DNA of 34,454 bases from Pseudonocardiaceae bacterium (lineage in GTDB: Bacteria > Actinomycetota > Actinomycetes > Mycobacteriales > Pseudonocardiaceae), in NCBI GenBank assembly GCA_025924655.1, contig JAICHZ010000005.1, forward strand, positions 1-34,454, written 5' to 3'. Both the position numbers and the translations under genes were made by a program. The notes beneath the pieces were generated by a model. The model saw only the letters and a list, made by a program, of their open reading frames with translations. It searched no databases and was not told the DNA's origin. Below, one piece after another: positions 27,056-34,442 of this stretch; positions within the stretch are counted from its first letter, which is position 1; every line of letters begins with the position of its first letter.

Positions 27056-27835
27056 ATGGTGAGCACAACCGTGGATACCGTTGCATTGCTCAAGGCGCCA
27101 CAGGACTGCGAGCTCACCCCTATCGCGAATTCGATCTCAGTGCACAACGCAACTCCATGGAATGGTATCGCGACGCTGCGTCAGTCCGTTCTCAACCTTT
27201 CCGAAGCTAAGGCTGTAACTTCTCCTGGTAGCAGCGAGTCTCCCAGCCCCATCGACGACGACTTCGCCGTACTCGTTGCGGCTGCCGTCAACGGTGAGCG
27301 AGATGCCGTAGATCGGGTGCTCCGCCGGGTGCGGCCGCTGGTGCTGCGGTACTGCCGGGCTAGGGTCGGTGGCCAGGAGAAGACGTTCGCTTCGGCGGAT
27401 GACGTAGCCCAGGAGATATGCCTCGCGGTGCTCACGGCCCTGCCGAATTACCGCGACCAGGGCCGGCCGTTTCTGTCCTTCGTGTACGGCATCGCCTCGC
27501 ACAAGGTGGCCGACGCGCACCGCAACGCCGCGCGCAACCGCGCCGATCTGGTCCCAGAACTGCCGGACACTCCGGAGCTGACCGAGGGTCCGGAGGCGCA
27601 GGTGCTACAGAATGAGGTCACCGGACGGATGGCCAAACTGCTGCACAACTTGCCCGAACGGCAGCGCGAGGTGCTCATCCTGCGGGTGGTGGTCGGGATG
27701 TCTGCGGAGGAGACGGCCGAAGCCGTGGGCTCGACGCCTGGCGCGGTCCGAGTAGCGCAGCACCGGGCACTGAGCCGGCTGCGCAGCCTTTTGACCGCAC
27801 GCACCGCCGTTGCAGCCCACCACGGCGCACCGTAG
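27056..27835 (+). CDS. RNA polymerase sigma factor, SigD/ShbA type
   Basis: The 259-residue sigma factor has sigma region 2 in LVAAAVNGERDAVDRVLRRV, LRYCRARVGGQ, SADDVAQEICLAVLTALPNY and RPFLSFVYGIASHKVADAHR, and region 4 in LPERQREVLILRVVVGMSAE and SAEETAEAVGSTPGAVRVAQH. This is the group found as SigD in mycobacteria and ShbA in Streptomyces, where ShbA drives the primary sigma factor gene. There is a long N-terminal extension of about 68 residues before the conserved domain. GAGGG lies five bases before the ATG. The HisRS gene follows after 25 bp on the same strand. Confidence 0.9.
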   Translation: MVSTTVDTVALLKAPQDCELTPIANSISVHNATPWNGIATLRQSVLNLSEAKAVTSPGSSESPSPIDDDFAVLVAAAVNGERDAVDRVLRRVRPLVLRYCRARVGGQEKTFASADDVAQEICLAVLTALPNYRDQGRPFLSFVYGIASHKVADAHRNAARNRADLVPELPDTPELTEGPEAQVLQNEVTGRMAKLLHNLPERQREVLILRVVVGMSAEETAEAVGSTPGAVRVAQHRALSRLRSLLTARTAVAAHHGAP

Positions 27836-27860
27836 CGAGCTGCGCCTACGCTCTTGCACC

Positions 27861-29150
27861 GTGGCTGACTACCTGCCGACCGCGCCCTACCGTGGTACCC
27901 GGGACTTCTTGCCCGCGGAGATGAGTGTCCGGACTCAGGTTTTCCAGCGGCTTTATGACATGATCGAACGGTACGGCTACCTGCGCTACGACGGCCCGAT
28001 CCTGGAACCAGTCGAGATCTACGAGGCGAAGTCCAGCCAAGAGATCGTAGAGCAGCAGCTGTACACCCTCACTGACCGCGGCGCGCGGCGACTGGCGTTG
28101 CGGCCGGAGATGACCCCGTCGGTGGCGCGGATCATCGCCGGCAACGCCGGCAAGCTCCCGTTCCCGGTGCGCTGGTACAGCCACCCGAACTGCCACCGCT
28201 ACGAGCGTCCGCAGCGGGGCCGGGTTCGTGAGCACTGGCAGATCAACGTCGACATATTCGGGTCGGACAGTCCGTCGTGTGAGATCGAGATCTTCGAACT
28301 GATCCACGACATGATGGCCGGGCTGACCGCGTCGCCGGACATGTGGGTGCTCCGCGTCAGTGATCGGGTTCTGTTGAATGCGATCCTGACGACGATGGTC
28401 GAAGTCCCAGCCGATCAGGTCCGTCAGGTGAGCGCGCTCATCGACCGATGGGAGAAATATCCCCAAGACAAGCTGGCCCAAGAAGCCGCCGAGCTGGGTC
28501 TGACGGAAAAACAGTTCAATCGCCTGGGTGAGATCCTCGGCGCCGGCGATGCTCTGCTTGACGATCTCCCACGCGAGGCGCGCGAGCAGTCAATGCTGAT
28601 GCGGGTCCTCGACACCAGCGCGCGAGATCTGGTCACGTTCGATCCGCTGATCGTGCGGGGATTCGACTACTACACCTCAACGGTCTTCGAGGTCTTCGAC
28701 ACCAACCCGGAGAATCGCCGCTCACTGTTCGGCGGCGGTCGCTACTCGAACCTGGTCGGACTGTTCTGCGCCGCGCAGATCCCCGGGATCGGTTTCGGGA
28801 TGGGCGACGTCACGTTGATGGATTTCCTGGGCACCCATGGCTTGCTGCCCGCACCACGCAGCGAAGTCGATGTCGCGGTCATCCCGGTAGACGAGACGCT
28901 GGCGCAGGCCGCCCGCCAGGTCGCCCGCGGTCTGCGCCAGGCCGGCCTGCGGACCAGCACCCCGCTGGAAATAAGGAAGCTGGGCAAGGAACTCGCCAGG
29001 GCCAACAAGTCGGGGGCCCGCGTCGCGGTGATCGTCGGGCGCGACGAGTGGGCGGCAGGCGCGGTCACCATCCGCAACATGGTGACCGGCGACCAACAGC
29101 AGGTCCCCACCGACGCAGTCCTCTCGGTTGTCACCACCATGCTGGGCTAA
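27861..29150 (+). CDS. hisS: Histidyl-tRNA synthetase, divergent type
   Basis: The 429-residue protein has a HisRS core: motif 2 in CHRYERPQRGRVREHWQ (RYERP at 113-117), the histidine-specific RGFDYYTSTVFEVFD (266-280), and a C-terminal anticodon-binding domain, VDVAVIPVDETLAQAARQVA onward. It therefore is not HisZ. Two positions are odd: the usual GGRYD is GGRYS (292-296), and motif 3 reads GFGMGDVTLMDF where HisRS normally has GxGx(E/D)R; the Arg is Val. I recall motif-2 variants like REHWQxNVDIFG from other bacteria, which would fit a paralogous or transferred HisRS. No ribosome binding site precedes the GTG; the gene lies 25 bp after the sigma factor. Confidence 0.82.
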   Translation: MADYLPTAPYRGTRDFLPAEMSVRTQVFQRLYDMIERYGYLRYDGPILEPVEIYEAKSSQEIVEQQLYTLTDRGARRLALRPEMTPSVARIIAGNAGKLPFPVRWYSHPNCHRYERPQRGRVREHWQINVDIFGSDSPSCEIEIFELIHDMMAGLTASPDMWVLRVSDRVLLNAILTTMVEVPADQVRQVSALIDRWEKYPQDKLAQEAAELGLTEKQFNRLGEILGAGDALLDDLPREAREQSMLMRVLDTSARDLVTFDPLIVRGFDYYTSTVFEVFDTNPENRRSLFGGGRYSNLVGLFCAAQIPGIGFGMGDVTLMDFLGTHGLLPAPRSEVDVAVIPVDETLAQAARQVARGLRQAGLRTSTPLEIRKLGKELARANKSGARVAVIVGRDEWAAGAVTIRNMVTGDQQQVPTDAVLSVVTTMLG

Positions 29151-29881: not shown

Positions 29882-30102
29882 AGCCGGTGAGGCTAGACCT
29901 ACGGTTAGCACACCGTAGCGTTCGAGTGGACATCAGTGAGCTGAGTTTACGGATTGGCGGCATGGCGGTCGACATCCCGGCGTAAGCTCTCGTCGACTAC
30001 CATTGAACTCGCCCTCGCCGTTCGAACAGAAACTCATCACGAATGACGTCTCAGTCGCTGAACGACCACCTACTTGATGGACCGAACGAAAGGGCTTGCG
30101 CA
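29882..30102. other. Intergenic region before the terpene synthase
   Basis: Spacer of about 220 bp with lower GC near 29990-30100. It includes the promoter region of the terpene synthase; an in-frame ATG at 30043 has no ribosome binding site and is not chosen. No further gene or clear dyad was found. Confidence 0.35.
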
Positions 30103-31098
30103 GTGACATCCACTACGATGCCAATTATCAACCTTCCTTTTATCGCCCGCCAGCATCCTGAGTCCGCCAAGATCGAGACATCCACCCGCGACTGGGTCAT
30201 GCGCTTTCGCTTAGCTCGCAGTGACGCTAGCAAAAATGGACTAGCCCAAAGCCGCTTCGGTGAGGCCGCTGCGTACGGTTATCCCGACGCGCCACTGCCG
30301 GAGGCGGAACTGGCGGCCGGCTGGTTTGCCTGGCTGTTCTTCGTCGACGACCACCACGAAGAAGGGGCCGACGGATCCGCCCAGGATTGGGCTGACGTCA
30401 CCGAAGCCGTCCGCGGAGTGCTTGAACTGGGTCTGCCGACCGGTCCGCTCGCCGACACACCGCTGATACAGGCACTTGCCGACCTCTCCCATCGTTTCAA
30501 CGCGCGGGCCTCGCCCGCCTGGAAAGAGCGCTTCAATCGGCACCTGATGGGCGTCATGGCGGGCGGCCGACATGATATCCGGCTCCGTGAAGGCGGCATC
30601 CCGCTGCCACTCGCCGAGTATATCCCGCTCCGGCGGGAGGCAAGCGCCGTACTGACCTGCTTCGACGTCATTGAAATCTGTGTGCATACCGAAATCCCAG
30701 ACCAGATCTACCACTCGCAGGTTTTCCAGGAGATCGTCCTTGCCGGTGCAGATCTTTTCTCCTGGGTCAACGATCTGTACTCATTGGACAAGGAAATTGC
30801 CTGCGGCATCGTGTCCAACCTGATCCTGGTGCTGCAATACGAACGGCACCTCAGCCGGGAACAGGCGTTCATCGCCGCATGCGCGCTCATAAGTGACCGG
30901 GTGAACGACCTCCTCGCGGCCGAGCAGCGCCTGCCCGAGCTGATCGACTCCCTGAATCTCGACACCGCCACCCAAGCAGCGATATACCGCTATGTGACCG
31001 GCATCCGCGACTGCATCGCCGGATCTAACCAGTGGCATGCCCACAGCACCCGCCGCTATCAGAAGACCGCTGGCGTGGGTGACCGCGCTGGTGGGTGA
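30103..31098 (+). CDS. Class I terpene synthase (probable sesquiterpene cyclase)
   Basis: The 331-residue protein starts (V)TSTTMPIINLPFIARQHPE. It has the first metal-binding motif in FFVDDHHEEG (Asp82, Asp83, with Glu86/Glu87), the NSE triad in NDLYSLDKE (Asn223, Ser227, Glu231), an arginine for the diphosphate sensor in LRREA (177-178), and the C-terminal RY pair in TRRYQ (318-319). Class I synthases ionise a prenyl diphosphate and cyclise it; size fits a C15 substrate, but the product cannot be predicted. GAAAGGG lies eight bases before the GTG at 30103. GC is lower than its neighbours near the start, suggesting transfer. Confidence 0.92.
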   Translation: MTSTTMPIINLPFIARQHPESAKIETSTRDWVMRFRLARSDASKNGLAQSRFGEAAAYGYPDAPLPEAELAAGWFAWLFFVDDHHEEGADGSAQDWADVTEAVRGVLELGLPTGPLADTPLIQALADLSHRFNARASPAWKERFNRHLMGVMAGGRHDIRLREGGIPLPLAEYIPLRREASAVLTCFDVIEICVHTEIPDQIYHSQVFQEIVLAGADLFSWVNDLYSLDKEIACGIVSNLILVLQYERHLSREQAFIAACALISDRVNDLLAAEQRLPELIDSLNLDTATQAAIYRYVTGIRDCIAGSNQWHAHSTRRYQKTAGVGDRAGG

Positions 31099-31475: not shown

Positions 31476-31511
31476 CGTACGTTAATTTCCACGCGACTGT
31501 TGAGACATACG

Positions 31512-34442
31512 ATGACCAGCGCTGTTAGCCTATTCTGCCCGGTGGGCAGCAACCGGCATCTCGTGCCGGGACGCGCCCGGCAACTCGCTCTCTTGCGCGC
31601 CGAACAGCAACGGAGCACACTCGGTGAACTAAGAGTGGCGCTGGTTCTCGGCGACCCCGGGCTGGGAAAAACGCGGCTCGCGGCCGAACTGGTACCTCGC
31701 CGCGATGAGTTCGCCGTCAGGCTGATCGCGCACAAATGTCTCTTCACGGGTATTCCGCCCCTTGGTCCCTGGGTCGACGCGCTTAATCTGCATGAGGGTG
31801 GCGTGGACCCTGATCGAGTCTGCCGCGTATGCGGGAGCGGGCTTGGTGGTCTACCTGCGCTCGTGCGCCGTGCCGATATCACCCACGACGCGGCTTCGTG
31901 CGCGGAAGCACTTCGCTACCACTTCGTCGAGTGGATCCCCGGCCTGCTCGCCACCGCTAGTAAAGACCGGCCCATCGTCGTGATTCTCGACGACGCTCAC
32001 CGCAGCGACGATGCAGTGTGGGAAATGCTGCTGCGGCTCGCGCGGGACTGTAAAAGCAGTCGCCTGTTCGTACTCGCCACTGCCCGGCCGGCAGAGCTGG
32101 CCAGGAACCGGACGGCCCTTGCGGTGCTGCATGCCCTGGAGCAGGAAGCACGGATACACCGCGTTGCGCTCGCACCGCTATCCCGGCAGGACATCTGGGA
32201 GCTGACGGCATACACCCTTCGGCAAGACCGTGTGCCGCCAGCGCTGGCGGACTGGTTGGTGGCTCGCGCTCAGGGCAACCCCCGGTTCGCTGTGGGGCTG
32301 CTGGATGCATTGATCGGGTGTGACGCAGACTTCCAGGCGCCGGCCTTGGGCCGGATTCCGGAGCGACTGGCCCGATGGATACGCAGCGAGATAGCGCAAC
32401 TCGACCCGTCGGCCCTGGCCCTCCTTGAGCTGCTCGCTGTTGCCGGCCACCCGGTGGATCCAGACGACCTCGCCCGGATCTCCGGGTCGCCGATCGAGGA
32501 CGTCGCGGTGGCCCTGGAGCAGCTCGCCCGTGCCGGCACGGTGGTCGAGCAGCAGCGTGCGGGATCCCTTGGCTACACGCTCGCCCACGTGCTCACCCGG
32601 GAAGTGCTGTACACCGGCATCGGTGCCGCCAGGCGGCGGGTGTTGCATCGGCAGGTGGCCGCGACGCTGCTTGAGTCCGGACGGATGGAGGCGGCCGCAT
32701 CGCATTACATTCGCGCAGCGCAGGCAGGGGACGGCGAGGCGATCGTCGCGCTGATCGAGATCGTCCGGCGAGCCCACCAGCGCGGGCTGAGTTCCCTTGA
32801 GTGGCAGACCATCTCGACATTGCAGGATCTCCTGCCGGCTGGCGATGAGCGCTGGTGCGAGGTGTTCAAGGCGTTGGGTCCACGGACGAATTGGGGCATC
32901 GTCGATCGGACCGAGCACTATGTGGCGGATATCTCAGCAGTACAGCGGATGCGGCATGTGCTCCCCAGGGTGGGCGACCTGCAACGGCAAGCCGACGTCC
33001 GGTTGTGGCTCGCGGGTTTGCTCGCCTACGGGGCGGGTGACGTCGATGCGGGCACACGGGAGTGCCAGCAGGCCGCCGCCCTCTGCCAGCAGGCCGGCTG
33101 CCACGCCGCAGCTCGATCAGCTGGGATCGAGTTGGCCAAGATTCGCGGATGGGCCGGTGACCTGCGCGGCGAAGAGGTGGCGGCGCGACGGCTGTTGAGC
33201 GAGGCAGAACGCGACGGCGATCAACGAGGGATCGCGGAGGCACTCGGGGCGTTGGGGCACACTCTCGGCTGGCAAGGCCGTTTCGAGGCGGCCGAGAACG
33301 TGCTCCTGCGTAGCGTCGAGATGGCTACCGCAACGGTGCACTTGTCGTGGATGTCGCAGAGTCTGGCCCTGCTCGCTTCCCTGGATGCCTGCCGGGGCCA
33401 CCTGGTCTCCGCACGCACCCGGTGCGCCCAGGCCGCCGCGTCCAGCCCACCCGGTGACCCGATGATCGGACGTTGCAGCGAGTTCATCGAGCTGCTTGCC
33501 GGGGATCTGACCATGGCACAAGCGCATGCACGGCAAGCAGACCGCCGCGAGCCAGCGGATCGCATCCGTGTGCCGGTCCGGCTGGCGGCCCGTGCGGCGA
33601 TGGCTGCAGCGGAGCGGGGCGAGCTCACCGAGGCTCGCTGGCACCTCAACTGCATGACGTGCATCGACAGCGGGGCCCTTGGAATTATTGAACCGTTGTA
33701 CTGGTGGGCCAAGGGAGTAGTGGCCAGGGCCGAGGGCCGGTTGACCGCTGCGGCCGTCGCGCTCCAGCGTGCGGTCGACCGCTACTCGGCGATGGGCGCC
33801 TATGCCCTGAGAGCGTTTGTTCTCGCGGATCTGGCCGAGGTCACGGTGATGGTCGGCGATGGCGACGCTGCGGCCAGCGTCGCGCAATGGGCCGAGGACA
33901 ACGCCCGCTGCACCGGCGCGCCCATCCACCAGGCGCTACATCTGCTGACCACGGCGTGGGCACTGATTGGACGGGGTCACCAGGCGCCGGCGGCGCGAGC
34001 CGCGTTGCGTGCGGTCGATGACTTCAGCGATCGCGGATATGTGCTCTTGGCGGCGCGTGCCCGCGTCGCCTACGCAGAAGCGATCCAACGATCTGATCGC
34101 GGCGCGGCCGAGGAATCGTTGCGCGAGGCGGCCGACGCATTCGACGCATGCGGAGCCATGGTGCGGCATCAGCAGGCTTGCTCGCAGCTCCGGCAACTCG
34201 GGTCAGACCGACGGTGCACCGCGCGCCCCGCACCCGGCCCAGGGTCGCTTACCAGACGCGAGCGGCAGGTCGCCGAGCTGGCCGCGGGTGGCTACACGGC
34301 CTCACAGATCGCCGCCCGGCTGTACATCGGTGTGCGCACCGTCGAAACCCACCTCGCCCGCGGCTACCGCAAGCTCGGAGTCACCTGCAAGCAACAGCTG
34401 GTGCGCCGCGCCGCGGAGTTCGGGTTCACGCCGGGTCCGTAG
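31512..34442 (+). CDS. LuxR-family large ATP-binding regulator (LAL type)
   Basis: The 976-residue protein has an N-terminal AAA/STAND-type ATPase with Walker A GDPGLGKT (47-54) and Walker B IVVILDDAH (155-163), a long middle region of helical, TPR-like repeats, and a C-terminal LuxR helix-turn-helix, LTRRERQVAELAAGGYTASQ followed by RLYIGVRTVETHLARGY. Such LAL regulators commonly activate secondary-metabolite clusters in response to an unknown signal. A TTG at 31500 is in frame, but ATG 31512 is preferred; no ribosome binding site is obvious. It stands 413 bp downstream of the terpene synthase on the same strand, so it is a candidate activator of that locus. Confidence 0.9.
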   Translation: MTSAVSLFCPVGSNRHLVPGRARQLALLRAEQQRSTLGELRVALVLGDPGLGKTRLAAELVPRRDEFAVRLIAHKCLFTGIPPLGPWVDALNLHEGGVDPDRVCRVCGSGLGGLPALVRRADITHDAASCAEALRYHFVEWIPGLLATASKDRPIVVILDDAHRSDDAVWEMLLRLARDCKSSRLFVLATARPAELARNRTALAVLHALEQEARIHRVALAPLSRQDIWELTAYTLRQDRVPPALADWLVARAQGNPRFAVGLLDALIGCDADFQAPALGRIPERLARWIRSEIAQLDPSALALLELLAVAGHPVDPDDLARISGSPIEDVAVALEQLARAGTVVEQQRAGSLGYTLAHVLTREVLYTGIGAARRRVLHRQVAATLLESGRMEAAASHYIRAAQAGDGEAIVALIEIVRRAHQRGLSSLEWQTISTLQDLLPAGDERWCEVFKALGPRTNWGIVDRTEHYVADISAVQRMRHVLPRVGDLQRQADVRLWLAGLLAYGAGDVDAGTRECQQAAALCQQAGCHAAARSAGIELAKIRGWAGDLRGEEVAARRLLSEAERDGDQRGIAEALGALGHTLGWQGRFEAAENVLLRSVEMATATVHLSWMSQSLALLASLDACRGHLVSARTRCAQAAASSPPGDPMIGRCSEFIELLAGDLTMAQAHARQADRREPADRIRVPVRLAARAAMAAAERGELTEARWHLNCMTCIDSGALGIIEPLYWWAKGVVARAEGRLTAAAVALQRAVDRYSAMGAYALRAFVLADLAEVTVMVGDGDAAASVAQWAEDNARCTGAPIHQALHLLTTAWALIGRGHQAPAARAALRAVDDFSDRGYVLLAARARVAYAEAIQRSDRGAAEESLREAADAFDACGAMVRHQQACSQLRQLGSDRRCTARPAPGPGSLTRRERQVAELAAGGYTASQIAARLYIGVRTVETHLARGYRKLGVTCKQQLVRRAAEFGFTPGP

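Follow-up and report, generated by a model that had tools for sequence, protein, structure and literature searches.

A histidyl-tRNA synthetase without the motif-3 arginine, probably the sole housekeeping enzyme of a Pseudonocardiales-like bacterium

Class II aminoacyl-tRNA synthetases bind ATP with the arginine of motif 3, and adenine is sandwiched between this residue and a phenylalanine of motif 2. We describe a gene for a histidyl-tRNA synthetase (HisRS), hisS, whose product lacks the motif-3 arginine; it lies in a 34,454-nucleotide stretch of DNA (contig JAICHZ010000005.1, positions 1 to 34,454; hereafter the window) from a Pseudonocardiaceae bacterium, and we place it in what we call the 'GD' clade of HisRS (motif 3 GFGMGDVTL). 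The closest described enzymes are those of Trypanosoma cruzi and T. brucei (3HRK, 3LC0, 3HRI), which also lack the motif-3 arginine (GFGFGDCVI), carry histidine in place of the motif-2 phenylalanine and an equivalent of Arg287 of the window enzyme, have the full-length fold, and are 31-34% identical to it in structural alignment. Also close is the archaeal HisRS of Thermoplasma acidophilum (1WU7; motif 3 GFGMGDAVI, equivalents of His125 and Arg287), which is the top relative by structure and the second by sequence, at 29% identity. T. brucei charges its own tRNA-His with a HisRS of the GD kind (PMC9976931, PMC6471195); its tRNA-His has no G-1 and its HisRS is independent of G-1, whereas on the window side there are G-1:C73 and an RPQ loop. 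In alphaproteobacteria, a foreign, laterally acquired HisRS replaces the vertical enzyme (PMC3937112), and the tRNA-His of species with the acquired enzyme lost G-1 and C73 (PMC9976931). Our case is alike in that a foreign HisRS stands in for the vertical one, and differs in that G-1 and C73 are kept.

We put the probability at roughly 80% that the window hisS encodes the sole, working, housekeeping HisRS of a Pseudonocardiales-like bacterium, an enzyme of the GD subtype shared with Thermoplasma and the kinetoplastids, with a rebuilt ATP site. The enzyme would activate histidine and charge tRNA-His normally. Its gene would have arrived laterally and displaced the vertical hisS; it would be transcribed into a leaderless mRNA from a promoter of its own, and would not form the end of a sigma-factor transcript. 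The subtype itself is known; what is new is a bacterial member whose ATP site has changed in an instructive way and whose displacement history is clear. What appears to be the sole HisRS of the cell lacks a residue treated as a class II hallmark, and a core synthetase has been displaced with no change in the identity bases of the encoded tRNA-His.

The initial annotation, made from the sequence alone, had described a full-length HisRS with motif 2, the RGFDYY signature and an anticodon domain, which held up. The 429-residue product scores 344.7 bits against TIGR00442, above the curated cut-off of 286.75, and has the Pfam domains tRNA-synt_His (PF13393, residues 12-314) and HGTP_anticodon (PF03129, residues 337-425). 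All of the signatures were found, namely motif 2 (RYERPQRGRVREHWQ), RGFDYY, GGGRYS and motif 3 (PGIGFGMGDVTL). The motif-2 arginine and the RGxxYY histidine signature expected of a HisRS are both present; among the 156 HisRS aligned for the tree described below, Arg113 and Arg266 are present in all and Arg121 in 155. The GGRYS and GFGMGDV motifs that the annotation had reported were likewise confirmed, and the arginine of the class II consensus GxGx(D/E)R is absent, with Thr318 standing where all 70 Arg-bearing sequences have arginine. The ordinary actinobacterial HisRS (TIGR00442, motif 3 ..GVDR..) has the same family, domains, motif-2 arginine and RGxxYY signature as the window enzyme; it differs in having the motif-3 arginine and a motif-2 phenylalanine or leucine, in having no Arg287, and in the position of its gene beside one for an MBL-fold protein. 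HisZ, the regulatory subunit of ATP phosphoribosyltransferase, shares the HisRS-like catalytic fold. We rejected this identity because the product reaches 157.6 bits against TIGR00443 (cut-off 271.65) and has an anticodon domain. The features of the gene are as follows, with counts referring to the 86 sequences of the GD side of the tree and to the 70 Arg-bearing ones.

27861..29150, + strand: hisS, HisRS of the GD clade (motif 3 GFGMGDVTL), 429 aa, GTG start, assigned by family model, domains and tree
28170..28262, + strand: motif 2 region RWYSHPNCHRYERPQRGRVREHWQINVDIFG, residues 104-134
28233..28235, + strand: codon of His125; His in 86/86 GD rows, and Phe in 51, Leu in 18 and His in 1 of the 70 Arg-bearing rows
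28656..28673, + strand: RGFDYY signature, residues 266-271, including the invariant Arg266
28719..28721, + strand: codon of Arg287, the proposed compensating arginine; Arg in 86/86 GD rows, and Ser in 37, Gly in 28, Ala in 4 and Leu in 1 of the 70 others
28731..28748, + strand: GGGRYS, residues 291-296; Ser296 is variable inside the GD clade
28782..28829, + strand: motif 3 region PGIGFGMGDVTLMDFL, residues 308-323, with Thr318 at the expected position of the class II motif-3 arginine

The tree was built from 156 HisRS with the motif-3 columns removed. Rows with a shared 300-residue core and two pieces of less than 330 aa from one genome (G046) were dropped from the tree and the counts, and two weak HisRS-like fragments below 60 bits were dropped before counting. 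A single branch (SH-aLRT 94) splits 86 sequences without the motif-3 arginine from 70 that have it. The GD side holds 84 bacterial rows, Thermoplasma 1WU7 and T. brucei 3HRI, and the window HisRS lies on this side and has the GD motif, His125 and Arg287, an assignment to be read with caution over long branches. Residue 318 is threonine or valine in 86/86 GD rows, two solved HisRS among them, and arginine in 70/70 others. Because no row of the clade (0/86) has the arginine, its loss is a clade trait and not due to chance or error. The GGRYS variant is not diagnostic, since residue 296 takes six different residues in the clade (Ser 53, Asp 14, Ala 11, Gly 5, Glu 2, Thr 1).

As far as can be judged from sequence, both faces that flank the adenine are altered in GD HisRS. 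The adenine would be held differently, with His125 instead of the motif-2 phenylalanine; the work of the lost motif-3 arginine would fall to Arg287, which sits on the strand immediately preceding GGGRY. From this covariation we infer that the ATP site of GD HisRS is probably rebuilt, one arginine compensating for the loss of the other. The proposed change, Arg318 lost and Arg287 gained, can be tested by mutation. An alternative, which we consider conceivable if somewhat doubtful, is that the motif-3 arginine is dispensable or is replaced by the motif-2 arginines or His125, and that Arg287 is structural, for example in a salt bridge with Asp280 or Asp316. Arg287 shares its clade specificity with Asp280, Asp316, Asn129 and His125, and by covariation alone it does not stand out. 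However, among these positions only Arg287 is arginine in every GD row yet never basic in the 70 Arg-bearing rows, and its position just before GGGRY also argues against a merely structural part.

The overall fold was taken from an AlphaFold2 (AF2) model of the window HisRS (pLDDT 78, pTM 0.71), which we used for this purpose only. Its best match is 1WU7 (Z 29.5, root-mean-square deviation 5.5, 395 residues aligned), and T. cruzi HisRS follow at Z 28.1-29.2, among them 3HRK, whose entry title names a histidyl-adenylate complex. Because of this title and the charging of tRNA-His in T. brucei, we regard the GD subtype as catalytically competent. A docking table, which is not an experiment, puts His168 and Cys365 of the T. 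cruzi enzyme around a ligand (PMC8484882); by our own residue count, with an offset of +22, the two correspond to His125 and Val317. The 'Arg314' of the same source belongs to another protein and was set aside.

Several points weigh against our reading of the enzyme. The bacterial clade and the two PDB sequences join on long branches, about which the program warns, and the tree gives no direction of transfer. The role of Arg287 rests on covariation, which it shares with Asp280, Asn129, Asp316 and His125. Residues 1-17, 45-92 and 113-123 are weak parts of the model, and the fold does not single out the GD subtype, given that 3NET (unclassed), at Z 28.7, is level with 1WU7 and human HisRS, at 27.5, is close to both.

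In the window genome (3.74 Mb in 451 contigs, 90.7% complete) we found one hisS above the family cut-off and two weak matches of 18 and 15 bits, the former on contig C75 in an open reading frame (ORF) that by eye resembles another class II synthetase. At this completeness and fragmentation, a second hisS could be missed, which counts against a sole copy. We scored 61 genomes from within the genus, family and order against the same cut-off. An intact GD-type gene was present in 13 of them, including six congeners, and none of the 13 had another match above the cut-off. A 14th genome (G042) carries a GD-type copy without its middle part (L101, G042:C61:1842-2792, a 663-aa open frame) together with an intact ordinary hisS.

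The place where the ordinary hisS would be expected is recognizable. In a reference genome (G026), the order is relA, PPIase, MBL-fold gene, hisS and YibE-like gene (names by eye), and hisS adjoins the MBL gene in all 13 loci compared from ordinary-type genomes. Contig C75 of the window genome has matches to relA, PPIase, MBL and YibE, with the MBL and YibE match ends 54 positions apart, and tblastn at E 1e-3 gave no match to ordinary HisRS in this contig. Of 11 loci fetched, 10 have MBL and YibE without hisS between them. The match ends lie 12-127 positions apart in eight of these and 1.1-1.4 kb apart, with other sequence in between, in two (G017 and G023); in the 11th locus (L317), a YibE match was not found. 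Three of these loci, G007 and G010 among the ten and G004 at L317, are from congeners with another HisRS type, of motif IERIL. In a further congener (G008), an Arg-bearing IERIL-type hisS extends across three reading frames (L096, G008:C34) and the GD copy is intact; the former looks like a displaced gene in decay, or an assembly error. Because the slot is without hisS, congeners have IERIL enzymes and the G008 copy is spread over three frames, we conclude that the ordinary hisS is gone from the genus of the window, with two replacement types alternating. The annotation had proposed an alternative clade, perhaps acquired, which gains support from the position of the gene outside the ordinary actinobacterial HisRS and from the ordinary site without hisS. 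By eye, the 61 genomes of this one order hold at least five HisRS types, with motif 3 of VDR, IERIL, GFERI, LTRI-like or GDVTL form.

Genes for tRNA-His were obtained from 50 of 58 pattern loci, with all 13 GD genomes included. G-1 is present in 50/50 and C73 in 49/50, and the window genome keeps G-1:C73. We therefore rejected a co-evolved odd tRNA-His, as in alphaproteobacteria and trypanosomes. By the encoded sequences, displacement of HisRS appears to have required no change in G-1 and C73 of tRNA-His. A link between the anticodon-stem sequence and HisRS type also fails, as two genomes with ordinary HisRS (G013 and G022) have the same CCTGG stem. The only A73 tRNA-His of the 50 (L127, G046:C15:21704-21923) belongs to a genome whose Arg-bearing HisRS is split over two contig ends.

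Beyond these genomes, we found 305 relatives in genome contigs and retained the 80 best, so that distant members are under-sampled. Going by record titles, most are from Amycolatopsis and other Pseudonocardiaceae, and the others include some Streptomyces, Micromonosporaceae, Nonomuraea, Frankia, Acidimicrobiia, Phycisphaera, Magnetococcales and Terriglobia. The genomes of 38 of the 80 loci, hand-picked for odd taxa, were searched for other HisRS at E 1e-30: in 21 genomes nothing but the GD HisRS matched, and in 17 there was at least one further match, a proportion that is not to be read as a frequency. In 11 of these 17 genomes the other enzyme is an ordinary HisRS (426-456 bits), and in the remaining two-HisRS genomes, such as Amycolatopsis sp. 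2-2 and Qaidamihabitans, the main enzyme could not be distinguished. Four of 392 Streptomyces genomes have a GD HisRS, which is the only hisS found in three of them. Seven plasmid records, all from Streptomyces and 511-630 kb in length, carry a GD hisS. A scan of 396 genomes of the phylum at E <= 1e-100 retrieved the window genome only, in a sample that is probably poor in members, many being found elsewhere. One genome, that of Saccharothrix sp. ALI-22-I (G472), has four HisRS-like matches, namely an ordinary, a GD-type, an LTRI-like and a divergent one in a 712-aa frame.

Of all that this comparison turned up, the extra copies next to biosynthetic-type genes make the most interesting lead, though they lie outside the window. 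Two sets of genes recur beside GD hisS in the 17 loci of two-HisRS genomes. Cluster A, at five loci, comprises genes for an adenylation enzyme, an isomerase-like protein, a pentapeptide repeat protein, a hexapeptide acyltransferase, a methyltransferase and in part pyridoxal-phosphate enzymes. Cluster B, at four loci (L251, L255, L256 and L264), comprises genes for a 2-oxoglutarate (2OG)-oxygenase-like protein, PqqD, radical SAM and B12 radical SAM proteins, a Gfo/Idh/MocA protein and a kinase-like protein. PqqD, radical SAM/SPASM, B12 radical SAM and Gfo/Idh/MocA genes occur at all four, and 2OG-oxygenase-like, thymidylate-kinase-like and AAA_28 genes at three of them, L264 being without the oxygenase and kinase-like genes. 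The query proteins were picked after the recurrence had been seen, and the contrast with other loci is descriptive and was not planned beforehand. Cluster A or B genes were found at none of 26 sole-copy loci (23 including the window, and three from Streptomyces), many of which had shorter flanks than the 17, and at none of six loci of other HisRS types in two-HisRS genomes. The query proteins had no match in the whole 34-kb window at E 1e-10.

One reading of these neighbourhoods is that GD HisRS are inhibitor-resistant self-resistance enzymes of biosynthetic clusters and have spread with them, on plasmids too. Such an enzyme may later have displaced the sensitive one in Amycolatopsis, Prauserella, some Streptomyces and the genus of the window, and in that form the idea is compatible with our preferred reading of the window hisS as a housekeeping gene. 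We regard it as tenable, with rather more doubt than confidence. The initial annotation had named resistance among the possible roles of the window enzyme, and the extra copies elsewhere keep that role in play as a possibility. In its favour are the 17 of 38 tested genomes in which a GD HisRS accompanies another HisRS, of the ordinary type in 11; the nine cluster A and B loci, set against none among the sole-copy and other-type loci; and carriage on plasmids. On the linear 603-kb plasmid of S. goshikiensis, nine same-strand genes are followed by GD hisS and then by a gene for a MerR-type regulator. In addition, 14 of 15 testable GD genes of two-HisRS genomes have a Shine-Dalgarno (SD) sequence and no TANNNT box, the reverse of the window gene. 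An S66 peptidase gene (Pfam) lies directly beside GD hisS at two of the five cluster A loci, in S. ipomoeae (L249:8073-9227) and Streptantibioticus (L250:10650-11729), and the best solved relatives of both peptidases are named as MccC or MccF family. MccF, an immunity protein against microcin C, cleaves synthetase inhibitors of the aminoacyl-nucleotide kind (PMC9239234, PMC3817062), and its substrates include peptidyl- and aminoacyl-nucleotides active against AspRS (PMC9239234). However, the E. coli enzyme is efficient only with aspartyl and glutamyl adenylates (PMC3817062), the S66 family includes housekeeping carboxypeptidases, and three of the five cluster A loci have no S66 peptidase. Neither cluster is present at 8 of the 17 loci (one of which, from Frankia, has the cluster B AAA_28 gene beside hisS), nor in the three Streptomyces with GD as sole HisRS. 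The shorter flanks searched at many sole-copy loci further soften the contrast. Relatives of the cluster A gene c5 occur in 6 of 392 Streptomyces, only one of which has a GD HisRS; the other five are 39-49% identical and may serve other pathways. The HisRS of cluster B loci do not form one clade in the tree. A literature search, covering open-licence papers, gave no natural HisRS inhibitor, and a search of the same kind on HisRS with Streptomyces clusters, Amycolatopsis and actinobacterial transfer gave no report of a GD-type enzyme in these bacteria.

Inhibitor-resistant second synthetases such as IleRS2 for mupirocin (PMC9437257) offer the nearest likeness, being divergent second synthetases as the GD extra copies beside biosynthetic-type genes are. 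The window enzyme differs from such an accessory, which is a second copy beside a sensitive enzyme: its gene is the only hisS found in the genome, and resistance of HisRS is putative. We would go so far, with somewhat greater reserve still, as to suggest that GD HisRS could confer self-resistance to natural products that target HisRS; these products, perhaps mimics of histidyl-adenylate, would come from two unrelated clusters that recur in actinobacteria. The rebuilt adenine site would confer the resistance, and escape of the enzyme from the clusters would explain repeated displacement, including that in the window genome. The extra copies, two of them beside an MccF-like peptidase, in any case give genome mining a concrete starting point in the search for natural products that might act on HisRS. 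As further observations on these neighbourhoods, the nine-gene uncharacterised cluster before GD hisS lies at L290:7644-20633 (S. goshikiensis plasmid NZ_CP108058.1), and L246-L250 fall under the same observation. The same plasmid carries genes for a pitrilysin-family protein, an ABC transporter and a HisZ-like protein 11-17 kb upstream on the other strand. A third S66 relative lies near another HisRS-like gene in Saccharothrix (L283:9866-10885).

The initial annotation had also raised the idea of a second HisRS whose role would be regulatory or non-translational and which might be expressed together with a sigma factor; we now consider this very improbable. What speaks for it is the altered motif 3 and the adjacency to an ShbA-type sigma gene. 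Against it, no other hisS was found in the 90.7%-complete genome, the ordinary slot is without hisS, and the gene is single-copy in 13 of 13 genomes with an intact GD copy, which, within the completeness of the assembly, is the outcome that the annotation had itself named as refuting its reading; the motif-2 arginine, the RGxxYY arginine and the anticodon domain are all kept. The following two features lie upstream of the gene.

27056..27835, + strand: ShbA-type sigma factor gene (280.9 bits against a cut-off of 209), probably outside the functional unit
27847..27852, + strand: TACGCT, a -10-like TANNNT box that ends 8 nt before the GTG; proposed leaderless promoter

The sigma factor passed the ShbA model, its ORF ends at 27835, 25 bp before the start of hisS, and a motif test found no SD-like sequence upstream of that start, so the annotation was right on the neighbour, the spacing and the missing ribosome-binding site. 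Co-expression of the two fares less well. The sigma gene is adjacent to hisS in 5 of 14 loci, all in the genus of the window, and two congeners are without it; we rejected ShbA and hisS as a conserved co-expression unit on this count. The window gene also has a TANNNT box where other clade members have an SD sequence. Starts were compared in 74 GD-clade genes, the window and 73 of the 80 loci, after seven loci with unplaceable starts had been dropped. A TANNNT box 5-10 nt upstream without SD was found in 44, SD without the box in 29, neither in one and both in none; at other offsets the same test gave 6% on average and 14% at most. With distinct upstream sequences only, the box was present in 33 of 61. 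Among sole-copy GD genes, the box was present in 13 of 20.

The window hisS thus has the features of a leaderless gene, a -10 box a few nucleotides upstream and no SD. That it has no ribosome-binding site would be better explained by a leaderless promoter than by coupling to the sigma gene. We read the window hisS as probably leaderless with its own promoter, though some read-through from the sigma gene may occur. Two points tell against this: the box is recognised by its consensus and not by a mapped transcript start, and 6 of 20 testable sole-copy GD genes have SD instead.

The least likely account, that the window gene is a decaying pseudogene or that motif 3 holds a sequencing error, has the missing arginine as its sole point in favour and is refuted by conservation, since the arginine is missing in 84 bacterial rows as well and the frame is open, with 62-95% identity to nine relatives; we give it practically no weight.

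Downstream of hisS, the window carries a terpene synthase gene (Terpene_syn_C_2, 30043-31098) and, after it, a 980-aa ORF (31500-34442) that by eye has the look of a LuxR/LAL-type regulator.

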